The notes beneath the pieces are model-generated. The model was given only the letters and a program-made list of their open reading frames with translations, made no database searches and was not told the origin of the DNA. Of a stretch of DNA of 64,000 nucleotides, positions 23,830 through 31,601 are shown piece by piece (position 1 is the first letter of the stretch; each line of letters starts with the position of its first letter). Source of the DNA: Haladaptatus sp. DJG-WS-42. GTDB taxonomy: Archaea; Halobacteriota; Halobacteria; Halobacteriales; Halococcaceae. The stretch lies in the NCBI RefSeq assembly GCF_037198285.1, contig NZ_CP147243.1:620001-684000 (forward strand), given 5' to 3'. The translations under genes and the position numbers were made by a program.

Positions 23830-23931
23830 TTGCGATACAACACCGTAATACAGGCATCCACTTGACAGTATTTAGTGAGCTATCAACTTCACTACACCCT
23901 TATACCCGACTCGCACAACTCACGTAGGTGT

Positions 23932-24336
23932 ATGAGTCGAGACCACCCGCTCGCCACGGTTGAAGCCCTGTCGCTCATCGCGCTCGGTGGGTTCGCCGGG
24001 GCAACCCTTCGCTACGCGACGAGTACGGTGCTCCCGGGGCTTTCGGGAACCCTCGTCGTGAACGTCGTGGGGAGTCTGTTGCTCGGTTTTTTCGTCTACG
24101 AACAGCGGTTTCTCGGTGTCTTTTCTGGGCCGATGCGCCTCGCTATCACGACCGGGTTTCTCTCCTCGCTCACGACGTACTCGACGTTCGCAGTGCAGAC
24201 GGCGCTATCGCCCGAACTCGCGCTCCTAAACGTCGTGGCAAACTACGCGCTTGGCTTTACCGCGGTGTTCGTCGGACGACTGCTCGCAAAATCACTGCCC
24301 GGCGCGAGTGTCGGGACGCCGGAGGTCGAGTCGTGA
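23932..24336 (+). CDS. crcB: Fluoride channel CrcB/Fluc, subunit 1
   Basis: The 134-aa membrane protein has four hydrophobic segments. The family marks are GGFAGATLRYATS, NVVGSLLLGFF (pore Asn) and GFLSSLTTYSTFAVQT. Fluc channels export fluoride and work as antiparallel dimers. It is followed by a second copy with a 4-bp overlap, so a heterodimer is likely. A longer open frame begins at 23875, but the ATG at 23932 fits the family. Confidence 0.93.
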   Translation: MSRDHPLATVEALSLIALGGFAGATLRYATSTVLPGLSGTLVVNVVGSLLLGFFVYEQRFLGVFSGPMRLAITTGFLSSLTTYSTFAVQTALSPELALLNVVANYALGFTAVFVGRLLAKSLPGASVGTPEVES

Positions 24337-24683
24337 ACCCGGCCTACCTCGTCGGGATTGGCGGCGCGCTCGGGGCGATGGCGCGCTATCTCGTTTCTGG
24401 GCGCGTTCCCGAGGGCCGACTTCCCTACGGTACGCTCACGGTGAACGTCATCGGGAGCTTCGTCCTCGGGGCGCTCACGTTTCTCGGCGTTTCTGACGAC
24501 GTGATGCTTCTCGTCGGAACCGGCGCGTGTGGCGCGTTTACGACGTTTTCCTCGTTCTCGGTCGAAACCAGTCTGCTCTGGGAGCGTGGTCACCGGACGC
24601 GGGCAGCGCTGAACGCGGGCGGAAATCTGCTCGCCTGTCTCGCGGCGATTGGGCTTGGCTGGCTCGTCGTCTCACTTCTCTGA
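24333..24683 (+). CDS. crcB: Fluoride channel CrcB/Fluc, subunit 2
   Basis: The 116-aa paralogue starts with GTG at 24333, overlapping the first crcB by 4 bp. It shows GGALGAMARYLVSG, LTVNVIGSFVLG and GACGAFTTFSSFSVET, the same landmarks as subunit 1, with four membrane segments. The tandem pair suggests an obligate heterodimeric Fluc. Its 3' end overlaps the convergent lycopene-cyclase-like gene by 12 bp. Confidence 0.93.
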   Translation: MNPAYLVGIGGALGAMARYLVSGRVPEGRLPYGTLTVNVIGSFVLGALTFLGVSDDVMLLVGTGACGAFTTFSSFSVETSLLWERGHRTRAALNAGGNLLACLAAIGLGWLVVSLL

Positions 24684-26371: not shown

Positions 26372-27061
26372 TTACAACTCGTCTACGCCGACGAGGCCGT
26401 CCTGCGTGATTTGGAAGCGCGCCGTCTCACCGGTCGGTTTTGCCCGGTGTTTCTCGATGGTGGCACGGCGATTCCCGCCGCGGAAACGGTCGAGGCGGAG
26501 CACGGTGCCCGTCCAGTGGGCAAGCGTGTGGCCACCGAGTGGGCGCGCAGAGTCGCCGTCAGGGTCGGTGAACACCTGATTCGTGATGACGACGGCGAGG
26601 TCGTGTTTGCGGGCGAGCGAGAGCAGGTGGGTCATCTGGCGGGCGACCTTTCTCAGCGACTCACCTTCCTCTTCGGTCGTTCGCTCTAGCCGATAAAATC
26701 CGGTCGCGCTGTCGAGAACGATGAGGTCTGCCCGCGAGGCGAGGTCGGCTGCGTCCTTGACGGCGGCTTCCTGCTCGCCGAAATCGTGGGCCTCCGAGAT
26801 GATGATGCGCGAGGCGAGGTCTGAGACGTCTTCGCCCTTGGCTTGCGCAAGCTGTTGGAAGCGGTCGATGGAGAGGCCTTCCGTATCGATATAAAGCACC
26901 GTCCGTCCTGCAGCGGCTGTTTCGACGGCCGCAGCAAGCGCCAGATTGGTCTTCCCGGCGGCGGGCGGGCCATAGAGTTGCGTGACGGTGCCGCGCTCGA
27001 AGCCGCCGCCGAGGAGGGCATCGACGGGGCCACAGCCAGTCGGAACGGGCGCGTTTGACAC
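26372..27061 (-). CDS. radB: RadB, RadA/Rad51-family recombination mediator
   Basis: The 229-aa protein is a short RecA-fold ATPase lacking the N-terminal HhH domain of RadA, as expected for RadB. Walker A is GPPAAGKTN (residues 31-39) and Walker B is LIVLDSATG. GFERGTVTQLYG and ITNQVFTD are family marks. RadB helps RadA loading in euryarchaea. The GTG at 27061 gives the usual length; the open frame upstream enters the divergent gene's promoter. It faces the RuvC-fold gene with 80 bp between. Confidence 0.93.
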   Translation of the reverse strand: MSNAPVPTGCGPVDALLGGGFERGTVTQLYGPPAAGKTNLALAAAVETAAAGRTVLYIDTEGLSIDRFQQLAQAKGEDVSDLASRIIISEAHDFGEQEAAVKDAADLASRADLIVLDSATGFYRLERTTEEEGESLRKVARQMTHLLSLARKHDLAVVITNQVFTDPDGDSARPLGGHTLAHWTGTVLRLDRFRGGNRRATIEKHRAKPTGETARFQITQDGLVGVDEL

Positions 27062-27141
27062 ACCTCTCCTTTCGCCGTCTTCGGCAAAAAGGGTCCGGTC
27101 TGCCGAAGGATTTAGCCACCTGCGGCGCGGAGAAGAAGGGA

Positions 27142-27882
27142 GTGATAGTCGTCGCCACAACGGACTTCAAAGTGTATCACGAGGCAGTCGCAGAACTGCG
27201 CGAGCGCGGGGTGCAGTTCACCACCATCGAACCCGGCGACAACCTCCCCGAGAATACGGCCGTCGTCATCACGGGCGCGGACGACGAAATCGAGACGACC
27301 GTGACCGTCGTCCGAGCAAAACCAGACGAATGTCGCCACGCCGTCGAAGAAGCCCTCGCACTCATGCGAAGCGGCGGCGGGAGAACGATAGTCGGCGTAG
27401 ACCCCGGCGAGCGCCCCGGTATCGCGGTGTTGAACGGCGAGATGGTCATCGCCACGTTCCACGTCCCGCTCGCCCAGGCGGCGGCGATTATTTTAGGAGA
27501 ACTTGAGGGAGCAGTAGACCCGCTCGTCAGAATCGGTGACGGCGCTCGGCTCCAGGGCGCACGGCTCATCGACGACCTCGATGGCACCCCCATCGAACTC
27601 GTCGACGAGACCGGAACGACACCATATCTCGGGACGGGTGCGCGCGGAATGGGCGACGTTATCGCCGCCATCAACATCGCCCATCTCTCGGGAGAGCGCA
27701 TCAGTGAGCGAACCATCGAGCCAACGGCTGGCGAGTTGCAAGTCATCAAGACGCGCTCACGAGAGCAGTCACCCGAGAATCGAGCGATAGGCGAGGAACT
27801 CGCCAGACGAGTTGCGGCCGGTGAACTGACTATCGAAGAAGCGCTTGCGGAACACCGCGAACAGCTGAACGGCCGGGATTAA
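27142..27882 (+). CDS. RuvC/YqgF-type RNase H-fold protein, putative nuclease
   Basis: The 246-aa protein has an N-terminal alpha/beta domain (about 1-75) and an RNase H-like core. Candidate acidic residues are Asp87 in TIVGVDPGERPGIAVL, Glu156 in IELVDETGTT and Asp172 in GMGDVIAAINIAHL; the spacing follows RuvC and YqgF. The C-terminal 40 residues are helical and Arg/Glu-rich. The GTG at 27142 is chosen as the start; longer translation would run through the radB promoter. Its position facing radB suggests a recombination or repair role. It overlaps larC (convergent) by 4 bp. The exact family is not certain. Confidence 0.75.
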   Translation: MIVVATTDFKVYHEAVAELRERGVQFTTIEPGDNLPENTAVVITGADDEIETTVTVVRAKPDECRHAVEEALALMRSGGGRTIVGVDPGERPGIAVLNGEMVIATFHVPLAQAAAIILGELEGAVDPLVRIGDGARLQGARLIDDLDGTPIELVDETGTTPYLGTGARGMGDVIAAINIAHLSGERISERTIEPTAGELQVIKTRSREQSPENRAIGEELARRVAAGELTIEEALAEHREQLNGRD

Positions 27883-29195
27883 TCGTCTCTGACCGCGGCC
27901 TCTGCCCGGCGCATGACTTCGCGGATTGGGAGGCCTGTTTCGTTTGCCACGGCGGCCGCATCGTCGTACTCCGCACTCACGTCGTAGAGCGTGTCGTCTG
28001 CATCGCTTGCGAGTTTGACGGAGACGTCGTAGGTGGTTCCCTCAATATCGAGGGTGGTGGTTTCGAAGCGTCGCTTGGCCGTCCAACGGTGGCGAGCGAC
28101 CATCTCGCGGATGCCGAGCGTCCCCGTCTCTTCTGCGAGTTTCTGGGCCACGCGAGCGGCGTCTTCCGCCCGGACGATGACCTTCACGAGGTGGCCGGGT
28201 CGCGCCTTTTTCATCGTGACGGGGACGATACTCACGTCGCGTGCACCGACGGCTTTGAGCGTCTCTTGCAGGCCGCCAAGCACTTCTGGCGGCGCGTCGT
28301 CGAGGTTTGTTTCGAGGACGGTGATGGCTTCGGGGACAAGCCCACCGCGCGCCGCACCGACGAGCGCGCGCAGGACGTTCGGCCGCTCGGGGAACGTCCA
28401 CCCACCCGCGCCGTAGCCCGACTGTTCGAGGGTCATCGCGGGCAGGGCGTCGATTCCGCGCGCGAAGTGGGCGAGAATCGCCGCGCCCGTAGGCGTGAGC
28501 AGTTCGGCATCGACGGGGCCTCCCTGCAGTTCCCAGTCGGCTTTCGCGGCGATTTCGACCACGGCGGGCGTCGGAATGGGGTAGGTGCCGTGGGCCATCT
28601 CCGCTTCGCCGCCGCCAACGGAGAGTGGCGTCGTCAGCACTTGGTCGGGCGCGAGGTCGGCAAAGAGGAGGCACGCGCCGACCACGTCCGCGATGGCGTC
28701 GTCAGCCCCGACTTCGTGGAAGTGGGTGTCTTCGAGCGGAGCGTTGTGGACCGTCGCTTCGGCTTCACCGAGAATGCGGAAGACGGCCTTCGCGTCCACT
28801 TCGACGTCCTCGGGGAGGCCCATGGCTTCGACGATGTCGATGACCTCTGCGTAGGTTCGATTTGGACCGGCACCTTCTGCGTGCGTGTGGTCGTGGGTGT
28901 GTGAGTGGTCGTGCGGGTGCGCGTGGTCGTGCTCGTGAGACTGCTCGTGGTCGTAGCCCTCTGCGTCCTCGTGGGCGTGGTGTGACGCCGCTGTGTCGGC
29001 TGTATCGCTCGTGAGCAGCACGTTCGCCTTCGTCGCCGAGATACCGTTTTTGTCCACGGTGTCGATATCGTAGCGGATGTCGAGTGCCGCTTCGACCGGC
29101 GCGAGCACAGCCTCGTCTGCGCCCGCGGCGAGCAACGCACCGAGGAGCATGTCGCCGCTCGCACCCATTCGTCCGTCGAACGCAACTGTTCGCAT
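27879..29195 (-). CDS. larC: LarC nickel insertion protein (nickel-pincer cofactor)
   Basis: The 438-aa protein inserts nickel into the pyridinium-bisthiocarboxylate mononucleotide cofactor of lactate racemase-type enzymes. MRTVAFDGRMGASGDMLLGA is the family start. HFHEVGADDAIADVVGA, GTYPIPTPAVVEI and ELLTPTGAAILAHF are further marks. Residues 72-105 contain 14 His, mostly alternating with Asp, a metal-binding stretch often found in LarC. No larB, larE or larA is in the window. The start 29195 matches the family; a longer frame is open upstream. Confidence 0.93.
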   Translation of the reverse strand: MRTVAFDGRMGASGDMLLGALLAAGADEAVLAPVEAALDIRYDIDTVDKNGISATKANVLLTSDTADTAASHHAHEDAEGYDHEQSHEHDHAHPHDHSHTHDHTHAEGAGPNRTYAEVIDIVEAMGLPEDVEVDAKAVFRILGEAEATVHNAPLEDTHFHEVGADDAIADVVGACLLFADLAPDQVLTTPLSVGGGEAEMAHGTYPIPTPAVVEIAAKADWELQGGPVDAELLTPTGAAILAHFARGIDALPAMTLEQSGYGAGGWTFPERPNVLRALVGAARGGLVPEAITVLETNLDDAPPEVLGGLQETLKAVGARDVSIVPVTMKKARPGHLVKVIVRAEDAARVAQKLAEETGTLGIREMVARHRWTAKRRFETTTLDIEGTTYDVSVKLASDADDTLYDVSAEYDDAAAVANETGLPIREVMRRAEAAVRDD

Positions 29196-29378: not shown

Positions 29379-31601
29379 ATGAATGAAGTTCAACTTGAGG
29401 TCGCGAAAGCGTACCCAAATGACTCCGGCCGGGGCATCGCCCGCCTCGATCCGGACACGCTGTTGCATCTAAAGCTCAGCCCGGGCGACATCATCCAGAT
29501 AGAGGGTGGCGACGTGACGGCGGCGAAGGTGTGGCGGGCAGACCGGCAGGACTGGAACACCGACACGGTTCGCATCGACGGGTTCACCCGGCAGAACGCA
29601 GACGTGGGGATTGGCGAACGGGTAACCATCCGCAAAGCCGAGGCGAAAAAGGCAGAAAAACTCGTGCTCGCCCCGCCTGAGGACGCGAGCGTCCAGTTCG
29701 GCTCCGATGCCGCGGGCATGGTCAAGCGCCAGATTCTGAAGCGCCCGGTCGTCGAACGCGACATCGTGCCGGTTATGTCGAGCACGAACCACCCGTTCAT
29801 GCGCTCACCCGGCCAAGCAATCCCGCTCATCGCCGTCGAGACGGAGCCTGAGGGCGTCGTCCTCATCACCGAGGACACGGAGGTTGAACTCCGCGAGGAG
29901 CCAATCAGCGGCTTCGAGAAGACCGGCGGTGGCATCACCTACGAGGACATCGGTGGCCTCCAACAGGAGATTCAGCGCGTCCGCGAGATGGTCGAGCTGC
30001 CGATGAAACACCCCCAGATTTTCAAGAAGCTGGGCATCGAGCCACCACAGGGTGTCCTCCTCCACGGCCCACCCGGCACGGGGAAAACCCTGCTCGCAAA
30101 AGCCGTCGCAAACGAGACCAGCGCCAGTTTCTTCTCTATTGCTGGTCCCGAGATTATCTCGAAGTACTACGGCGAATCCGAGCAACAACTGCGCGAAATC
30201 TTCGAAGATGCGTCCGAAGAGTCGCCATCTATCATCTTCATCGACGAACTCGACTCCATCGCGCCAAAGCGCGAGGACGTGACCGGCGAAGTCGAACGCC
30301 GCGTCGTCGCCCAGTTGCTCACCATGATGGACGGCTTAGAGGCGCGCGGCAACGTCATCGTCATCGCCGCGACCAATCGTGTTGACTCCGTTGACCCTGC
30401 CCTTCGCCGTCCCGGCCGCTTCGACCGCGAAATCGAGATTGGCGTCCCAGACGAGGAAGGCCGCAAGGAGATTCTGCAGGTCCACACCCGCGGCATGCCG
30501 CTCGCAGACGACGTGAGCCTCGACGACCTCGCAGAGGAGACCCACGGCTTCGTCGGCGCGGACATCGAATCGCTCACCAAAGAGTCGGCGATGAAAGCCC
30601 TCCGGCGCTACCTGCCGGAAATCGACCTTGATGAAGAGGACATCCCGCCGTCACTCATCGACCGCATGATCATCAAGCGGTCTGACTTCCGCGGCGCGCT
30701 CGCAGAGGTAGACCCCTCCGCGATGCGCGAAGTCCTCGTCGAGTTACCGAAAGTCTCGTGGGAGGATGTTGGCGGCTTGGAGGACGCAAAGCAGAACGTT
30801 CAGGAATCGGTCGAGTGGCCAATGAACTCCCCCGAGAAGTTCACCCGCATGGGCATTGACCCGCCTGCGGGCGTGCTCCTCTACGGCCCGCCCGGCACGG
30901 GCAAGACGCTCATCGCCAAAGCCGTCGCAAATCAGACGAAGGCGAACTTCATCTCGGTGCGCGGCCCACAACTGCTCTCGAAGTGGGTCGGTGAGTCGGA
31001 GAAAGCCATCCGTCAGACCTTCCGCAAGGCGCGGCAGGTCGCCCCGACGGTCATCTTCTTCGACGAACTCGACAGCCTCGCGCCAAGCCGTGGCCGCGAC
31101 ACGGGCTCGAACGTCTCAGAGCGCGTCGTCAACCAGTTGCTCACGGAACTCGACGGTCTCGAAGACCGCGGCAACGTCATGGTCATCGCCGCGACCAACC
31201 GCCCGGACATGATCGACCCGGCGCTCATCCGCTCGGGTCGCTTCGACCGCCTCGTGCTCATCGGCGAGCCAAGCGAGGACGGCCGCGAAGAGATCTTAGA
31301 GATTCACACGAAGAACATGCCACTCGCCGCCGACGTGAGCTTAAAAGAGATTGCGGAGATTACCGAGGGCTACGTCGGCTCTGACCTCGAATCCATCGCG
31401 CGCGAAGCCGCCATTCAGGCGCTGCGCGAGGATTCGGACGCAGACGTGGTGGAGATGCGCCACTTCCGCAAGGCGATGGAGAACGTCCGTCCGACCATCA
31501 CCGACGACATGATGGAGTACTTCGAGCGCATCAAAGACGAGTTCAAGGGCGGTGCGACGGAGCCAACGGCTGGACGGCATTCGAGAATCGGCTTCCAATA
31601 A
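29379..31601 (+). CDS. cdc48: CDC48/VCP-type AAA ATPase
   Basis: The 740-aa ATPase has an N-domain (1-175) and two AAA modules. D1 Walker A is HGPPGTGKT near residue 230 with Walker [14 protein letters not shown]2 has YGPPGTGKT near residue 503 with [12 protein letters not shown]. Arginine-finger regions [13 protein letters not shown] and [10 protein letters not shown] are present. The enzyme unfolds proteins, feeding the proteasome in archaea. It lacks the intein found in some haloarchaeal homologues. The ATG at 29379 begins [16 protein letters not shown] hairpin repeat starts immediately after the stop. Confidence 0.96.

Follow-up and report, generated by a model that had tools for sequence, protein, structure and literature searches.

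The RNase H-like proteins RuvC and YqgF differ in where their acidic residues lie. YqgF carries a Glu on β-5, a single Asp on the last helix and no additional helices, whereas the second acid of RuvC, also a Glu, is on β-4, and two extra helices precede its last helix (PMC9601230; PMC3985635). Characterised YqgF proteins cleave RNA and/or branched nucleic acids, and the RNase activity of D. radiodurans YqgF needs both E106 and D122, residues spaced 16 apart (PMC9601230). The migrated carboxylate of YqgF may nevertheless point away from the active site (PMC3985635). Among haloarchaea, Hjc and Hef have been described as alternative resolvases in H. volcanii (PMC7776575). In the same organism, radB (HVO_2383; PMC11276520) lies among genes for a CBS protein (HVO_2384; PMC12607858), LarC (HVO_2381; PMC8305020) and Cdc48a (HVO_2380; PMC9051519). 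The remaining gene of this series, HVO_2382, is named merely as an uncharacterised protein within a neighbourhood analysis (PMC10470531), and the passages found in the radB genetics paper make no mention of it (PMC5480776).

The locus described here lies in a window of 64,000 nucleotides from Haladaptatus sp. DJG-WS-42 (contig NZ_CP147243.1, positions 620,001 to 684,000), the whole stretch of DNA that was analysed. A forward-strand gene (27142..27882, +), with a GTG start at 27142 and its stop codon at 27880-27882, encodes a 246-aa protein, predicted to be RNase H-like and YqgF-type, that is assigned as the orthologue of the uncharacterised HVO_2382 by gene order rather than by comparison of the two sequences. 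GTG occupies exactly this position in 108/122 distinct haloarchaeal contexts and is found one codon upstream in 12 more; a longer open reading frame, starting at TTG 27055, overlaps radB. The latter (26372..27061, −; GTG start) encodes the RecA-family recombination mediator and scores 410.9 bits against the NCBIfam RadB equivalog NF006861 (cut-off 278) and 266.2 bits against TIGR02237. The two GTG starts are separated by a divergent intergenic region of 80 bp (27062..27141), confirming the arrangement reported in an earlier, sequence-only reading of this DNA. AT-rich boxes lie close to both genes, and no conserved operator palindrome was found in this region; an inverted repeat within it, CTTCGGCA...TGCCGAAG, was discarded as a shared operator, being missing from two congeneric genomes. 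The convergent neighbour (27879..29195, −) encodes a larC-like nickel insertion protein (PF01969, E 4.2e-124), its start being set at the Met from which most orthologue alignments run. Next in what synteny indicates is an ancestral block is a cdc48-type AAA ATPase gene (29379..31601, +; CDC48_N, CDC48_2 and two AAA domains). Elsewhere in the window, at 23875-24683, two overlapping open reading frames resemble paired CrcB/fluoride-channel genes, as judged from sequence.

The 246-aa protein belongs to a family outside all Pfam and NCBIfam models. Two AlphaFold2 models (mean pLDDT 86.5 and 88.4; pTM 0.55 and 0.61) agree on its domain layout. Residues 1-75 (27142..27366, +) form a predicted β-α-β-β-β-α domain with block pLDDT mostly 90-96, in which Thr6, Asp8 and Phe9 are invariant; the separate N-terminal domain of about 75 residues that had been proposed from sequence is thereby recovered as an α/β domain in the predicted structure. 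An RNase H-like domain follows at residues 79-185 (27376..27696, +), with predicted strands at 82-87, 93-98, 101-107, 128-132 and 151-154 and helices at 110-121, 136-145 and 171-180. The chain ends in a helical tail of residues 190-246 (27709..27879, +; predicted helices 196-209, 218-225 and 231-244) that contains conserved P-T/S-x-x-E and S-R-E-x-S motifs. The orthologues of one genus, g4 (L025, L026 and L028; open frames of 272-300 aa), carry extra sequence within the N-terminal domain, around residues 40-60, and their matches are split in two pieces.

Three acidic residues stand out in the central domain. Asp87 (GAC, 27400..27402, +) closes β-1 within a GxDPG motif, Glu156 (GAG, 27607..27609, +) lies just past β-5 within E-L-V-D-E-T/S, and Asp172 (GAC, 27655..27657, +) begins the C-terminal core helix within D-[IV]-[IVL]-A-A-[IV]-N-I-A. 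All three are invariant across 109 haloarchaeal sequences and across 27/27 non-haloarchaeal orthologues of 35-43% identity, indicating that the triad did not arise by chance; the loss in homologues that might have spoken against the earlier proposal was not seen. Glu152 is also invariant and Asp155 is at least 90% conserved. Position 133 is invariably Asp in Halobacteria and His, Asn, Arg or Ser in orthologues elsewhere, and so falls outside any universal active site. Both models show the RNase H order of strands and helices with Asp87 closing β-1, which upholds the superfamily assignment of the sequence-only reading but only one half of its comparison with RuvC and YqgF. The triad is spaced as in YqgF, with a Glu after β-5 and 16 residues from Glu156 to Asp172, and departs from RuvC in having no β-4 Glu. 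Likewise, only a 15-residue low-confidence loop (155-170) separates β-5 from the last core helix, and the predicted models contain no two-helix insertion ahead of that helix, so that the label 'RuvC-like' is not supported as it stood. On the strength of these models, the protein is predicted to belong to the RNase H-like superfamily (RuvC/YqgF), in the YqgF arrangement.

The closest families each share part of this plan. Like YqgF/RuvX (PF03652, COG0816), the protein has an Asp on β-1, a Glu ending β-5 and an Asp on the last helix, and its Glu-to-Asp spacing equals that of the D. radiodurans enzyme; unlike them, it bears an additional N-terminal domain and a C-terminal helical tail. Alignment by hhalign sets its VELVDETGTT on VKLHDERLST of E. 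coli YqgF, a match that is not significant at the sequence level. There was no PF03652 (RuvX) match at E <= 1 for either the protein or its family, and a search of this Haladaptatus genome returned no RuvX elsewhere in it. To our knowledge, archaea are without RuvX as found in bacteria. The sole Pfam family with recurrent weak matches is DUF460 (PF04312; COG2433), also archaeal and RNase H-like, which is matched by 59/75 members at E <= 1 (best 8.5e-4) and by the window protein with 15.8 bits (E 0.011), under the gathering score of 28 bits. Profile-profile comparison gives E about 1e-5 and a probability of 73-81% over β-1 to β-4, these E-values being pairwise and not database-corrected, and VDE...D...AA motifs are visible in both families. 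DUF460 frames, however, are about 650-700 aa with a coiled coil, against 246 aa here, and the two are not the same protein: the same genomes each hold one separate DUF460 gene.

Among PDB entries, the first model matched Tex best (2oce; E 8.3e-5, probability 1.00), whereas the second and better model gave nothing below E 1e-3 and a mixture of HIV integrase and Rossmann-like matches; such searches use the whole chain, which makes them ill-suited to a model with two domains. Matches in a viral library include RuvC-like resolvases (probability 1.00). Together the fold searches back membership of the superfamily, though not strongly. The β-5 segment of Tex, SEAGASVYSAS, resembles VDETGTTPYLG of the window protein, but Tex carries HhH and S1 domains, for which the 246-aa protein has no Pfam counterpart. 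Tex is also missing the third carboxylate (PMC3985635), which is invariant in this family. DUF460/COG2433 and the YqgF domain of Tex are weakly indicated as the closest relatives. With RuvC, the protein shares its superfamily and an Asp-Pro-Gly motif on β-1, and differs in placing the Glu on β-5 rather than β-4 and in missing the HJ-binding helix insertion. A Pelota match from a single-sequence PDB search (E 6.6e-4) disappeared with the family profile and was taken as chance; weak Pfam matches to PASTA and Big_3_3 disagree with the model and were set aside.

The gene is patchily distributed, occurring in 79/321 good genomes of the phylum. Among the 78 haloarchaeal loci with enough flank, which come from related genomes and are not independent, radB is divergent in 71/78, lying no more than 300 bp away in 48 and farther off, but within 2.5 kb, in the other 23; it is codirectional in five and absent in two. 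A convergent larC lies within 2.5 kb in 50/74. Outside Halobacteria, radB is directly divergent in four family-level groups (f18, f23, f25 and f31), so that the linkage extends beyond close relatives, as the earlier proposal required. In f18 and f31 the conservation reaches further, with larC, cdc48 and a PRC-barrel gene retained downstream and dapF retained on the far side of radB, which argues that the whole block is old. From gene order, the linkage with radB appears to predate the split of the salt-loving archaea from their methane-producing relatives. The stronger suggestion that the gene is tied to RadB fared less well. Not only do larC and cdc48 share the block, but the gene is unlinked to radB in three groups (f28, f40 and f44), and radB was found over the cut-off in 33/33 genomes checked, of which 19 are without the window gene and 14 have it elsewhere. 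A RadB partner occurring only alongside radB and always linked to it is therefore not what the genomes show; a dedicated partnership is possible on the pattern of linkage.

Several individual loci are arranged in other ways. In Natronorubrum bangense (L076 and L077), the locus of radB and the putative nuclease occurs twice, once on the chromosome and once on plasmid unnamed1, and the match coordinates of the two copies are identical. The f28 gene (L159, L160, L163, L165 and L166) lies downstream of, and codirectional with, a FEN1-like gene at a gap of about 300 bp, a linkage too weak for use. In f40 and f44 (L154, L157, L158, L161, L162, L164 and L167), the gene converges on a conserved neighbour of about 365 aa, apparently DUF373-like.

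A further feature of this family is how its translation appears to begin. In bacteria, a strong Shine-Dalgarno sequence combined with a conserved weak start has been reported for translationally limited genes (PMC13009471; sigR, PMC5472188). For archaea, a 2021 review lists non-canonical events as demonstrated for elongation and termination only (PMC8211752). In Halobacteria, the gene starts with GTG in 120/122 distinct contexts. This is a feature of the divergent pair, since radB also starts with GTG or TTG wherever its start can be placed, whereas the neighbouring cdc48 (44/44) and CBS (33/33) genes all start with ATG. Outside Halobacteria, 25/33 distinct contexts have no in-frame ATG, GTG or TTG in the 12 codons upstream of a conserved IALxT motif. 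Instead, most non-haloarchaeal orthologues (L141-L167 and L213-L226) have a strong GGAGG Shine-Dalgarno followed, after 7-8 nt, by AUU, AUC or AUA (f18 and half of f25) or by AGG (the rest of f25, f31, f40 and nearly all of f44). This slot keeps a constant distance from GGAGG and a variable one, 3 to 18 nt, from the conserved Ile. Several sequences of f44 and f25 have an in-frame stop immediately before AGG, and in one from f44 the slot itself is filled by ATG. In f28, AGG is retained and an ATG stands three codons ahead of it. The same start pattern was sought in about 35 neighbouring gene families, none of which shows it consistently across groups.

Two ordinary accounts of this pattern were considered and rejected. 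AGG is unlikely to be present simply as an Arg codon, as it makes up only 0.24-0.38 of Arg codons in these loci yet fills the slot in nearly all distinct contexts of f23, f28, f31, f40 and f44, with an in-frame stop immediately before it in several cases. Entry through an upstream open reading frame or a frameshift is disfavoured by the lack of a conserved upstream frame, as judged by eye, and of a canonical start in any frame just past the Shine-Dalgarno. Alternatively, AGG may act as a second, weak Shine-Dalgarno for initiation at the Ile codon that lies downstream. With due reserve, we raise the possibility of a conserved translational brake, in which AUU/AUC/AUA or AGG 7-8 nt past GGAGG would serve as the start codon in five or more family-level groups of archaea. 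We know of no precedent for AGG as a natural start codon. The pattern resembles those of infC, pcnB, S. aureus ccpN/cvfC1 and Streptomyces sigR in coupling a gene-specific, conserved non-canonical start to a strong Shine-Dalgarno, but the bacterial genes use AUU, AUA or GTC and the archaeal cases here mostly AGG (PMC13009471; PMC5472188). By analogy with IF3 and infC, the product, or the maturation state of the ribosome, could control the synthesis of the protein.

Invariance of the acidic triad across several classes points to catalysis. The reading that we tentatively prefer, while regarding it as having a little under an even chance, is that the protein is a low-dose YqgF-type nuclease with a structured nucleic-acid substrate, accessory rather than core to RadB-dependent recombination. 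Asp87, Glu156 and Asp172 would bind one or more divalent metals for phosphodiester cleavage, and substrate choice would fall to the N-terminal domain together with the basic helical tail. The likeliest substrate would be branched DNA or an RNA-containing junction, formed where recombination by RadA/RadB, replication and transcription meet. Weak start codons would maintain the low dose of the product.

A rather unlikely but serious alternative is that the protein processes or degrades RNA, as bacterial YqgF/RuvX does in pre-16S rRNA maturation, and that its position beside radB is inherited gene order. The active-site arrangement of YqgF, whose E. coli and D. radiodurans representatives act on RNA (PMC9601230), would fit such a role, as would the retention of larC and cdc48 in the neighbourhood, and weak starts would suit a ribosome-affecting product such as IF3 (infC; PMC13009471). 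A core rRNA maturation step, however, is ill-matched by a gene present in 79/321 genomes, and in none of the loci examined is it linked to genes for rRNA or the ribosome. Less probable still is a non-catalytic nucleic-acid binder that uses the fold as a scaffold, as the YqgF domain of Tex/Spt6 does. This reading draws on the rank of Tex as top PDB match for the first model, on the likeness of the β-5 segments and on a report that nuclease activity of Tex had not been shown (PMC3985635), but the window family keeps across classes all three acids, the third of which Tex is without. A RuvC-type Holliday junction resolvase, second beside Hjc, can largely be dismissed despite the shared superfamily, the position divergent from radB and the in vitro junction resolution by H. 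pylori DprB and M. tuberculosis RuvX (PMC9601230), as the Glu after β-5, the unkept β-4 Glu and the missing two-helix insertion make it an unnatural prediction, and as the Haladaptatus genome already has Hjc, with Hjc/Hef serving H. volcanii (PMC7776575).

The preferred reading of an accessory YqgF-type nuclease makes HVO_2382 a conserved candidate nuclease at the radB locus of the genetically tractable H. volcanii, and the family would represent an archaeal YqgF-type enzyme with its own domain plan. If true, the translational brake is the newest lead of the analysis, given that conserved non-canonical initiation in archaea stood undemonstrated as of 2021 (PMC8211752). Automatic annotation would then probably trim a conserved N-terminal strand and helix from the protein in many genomes, and the pattern would lend itself, as a natural system, to the study of how archaea select their start codons.
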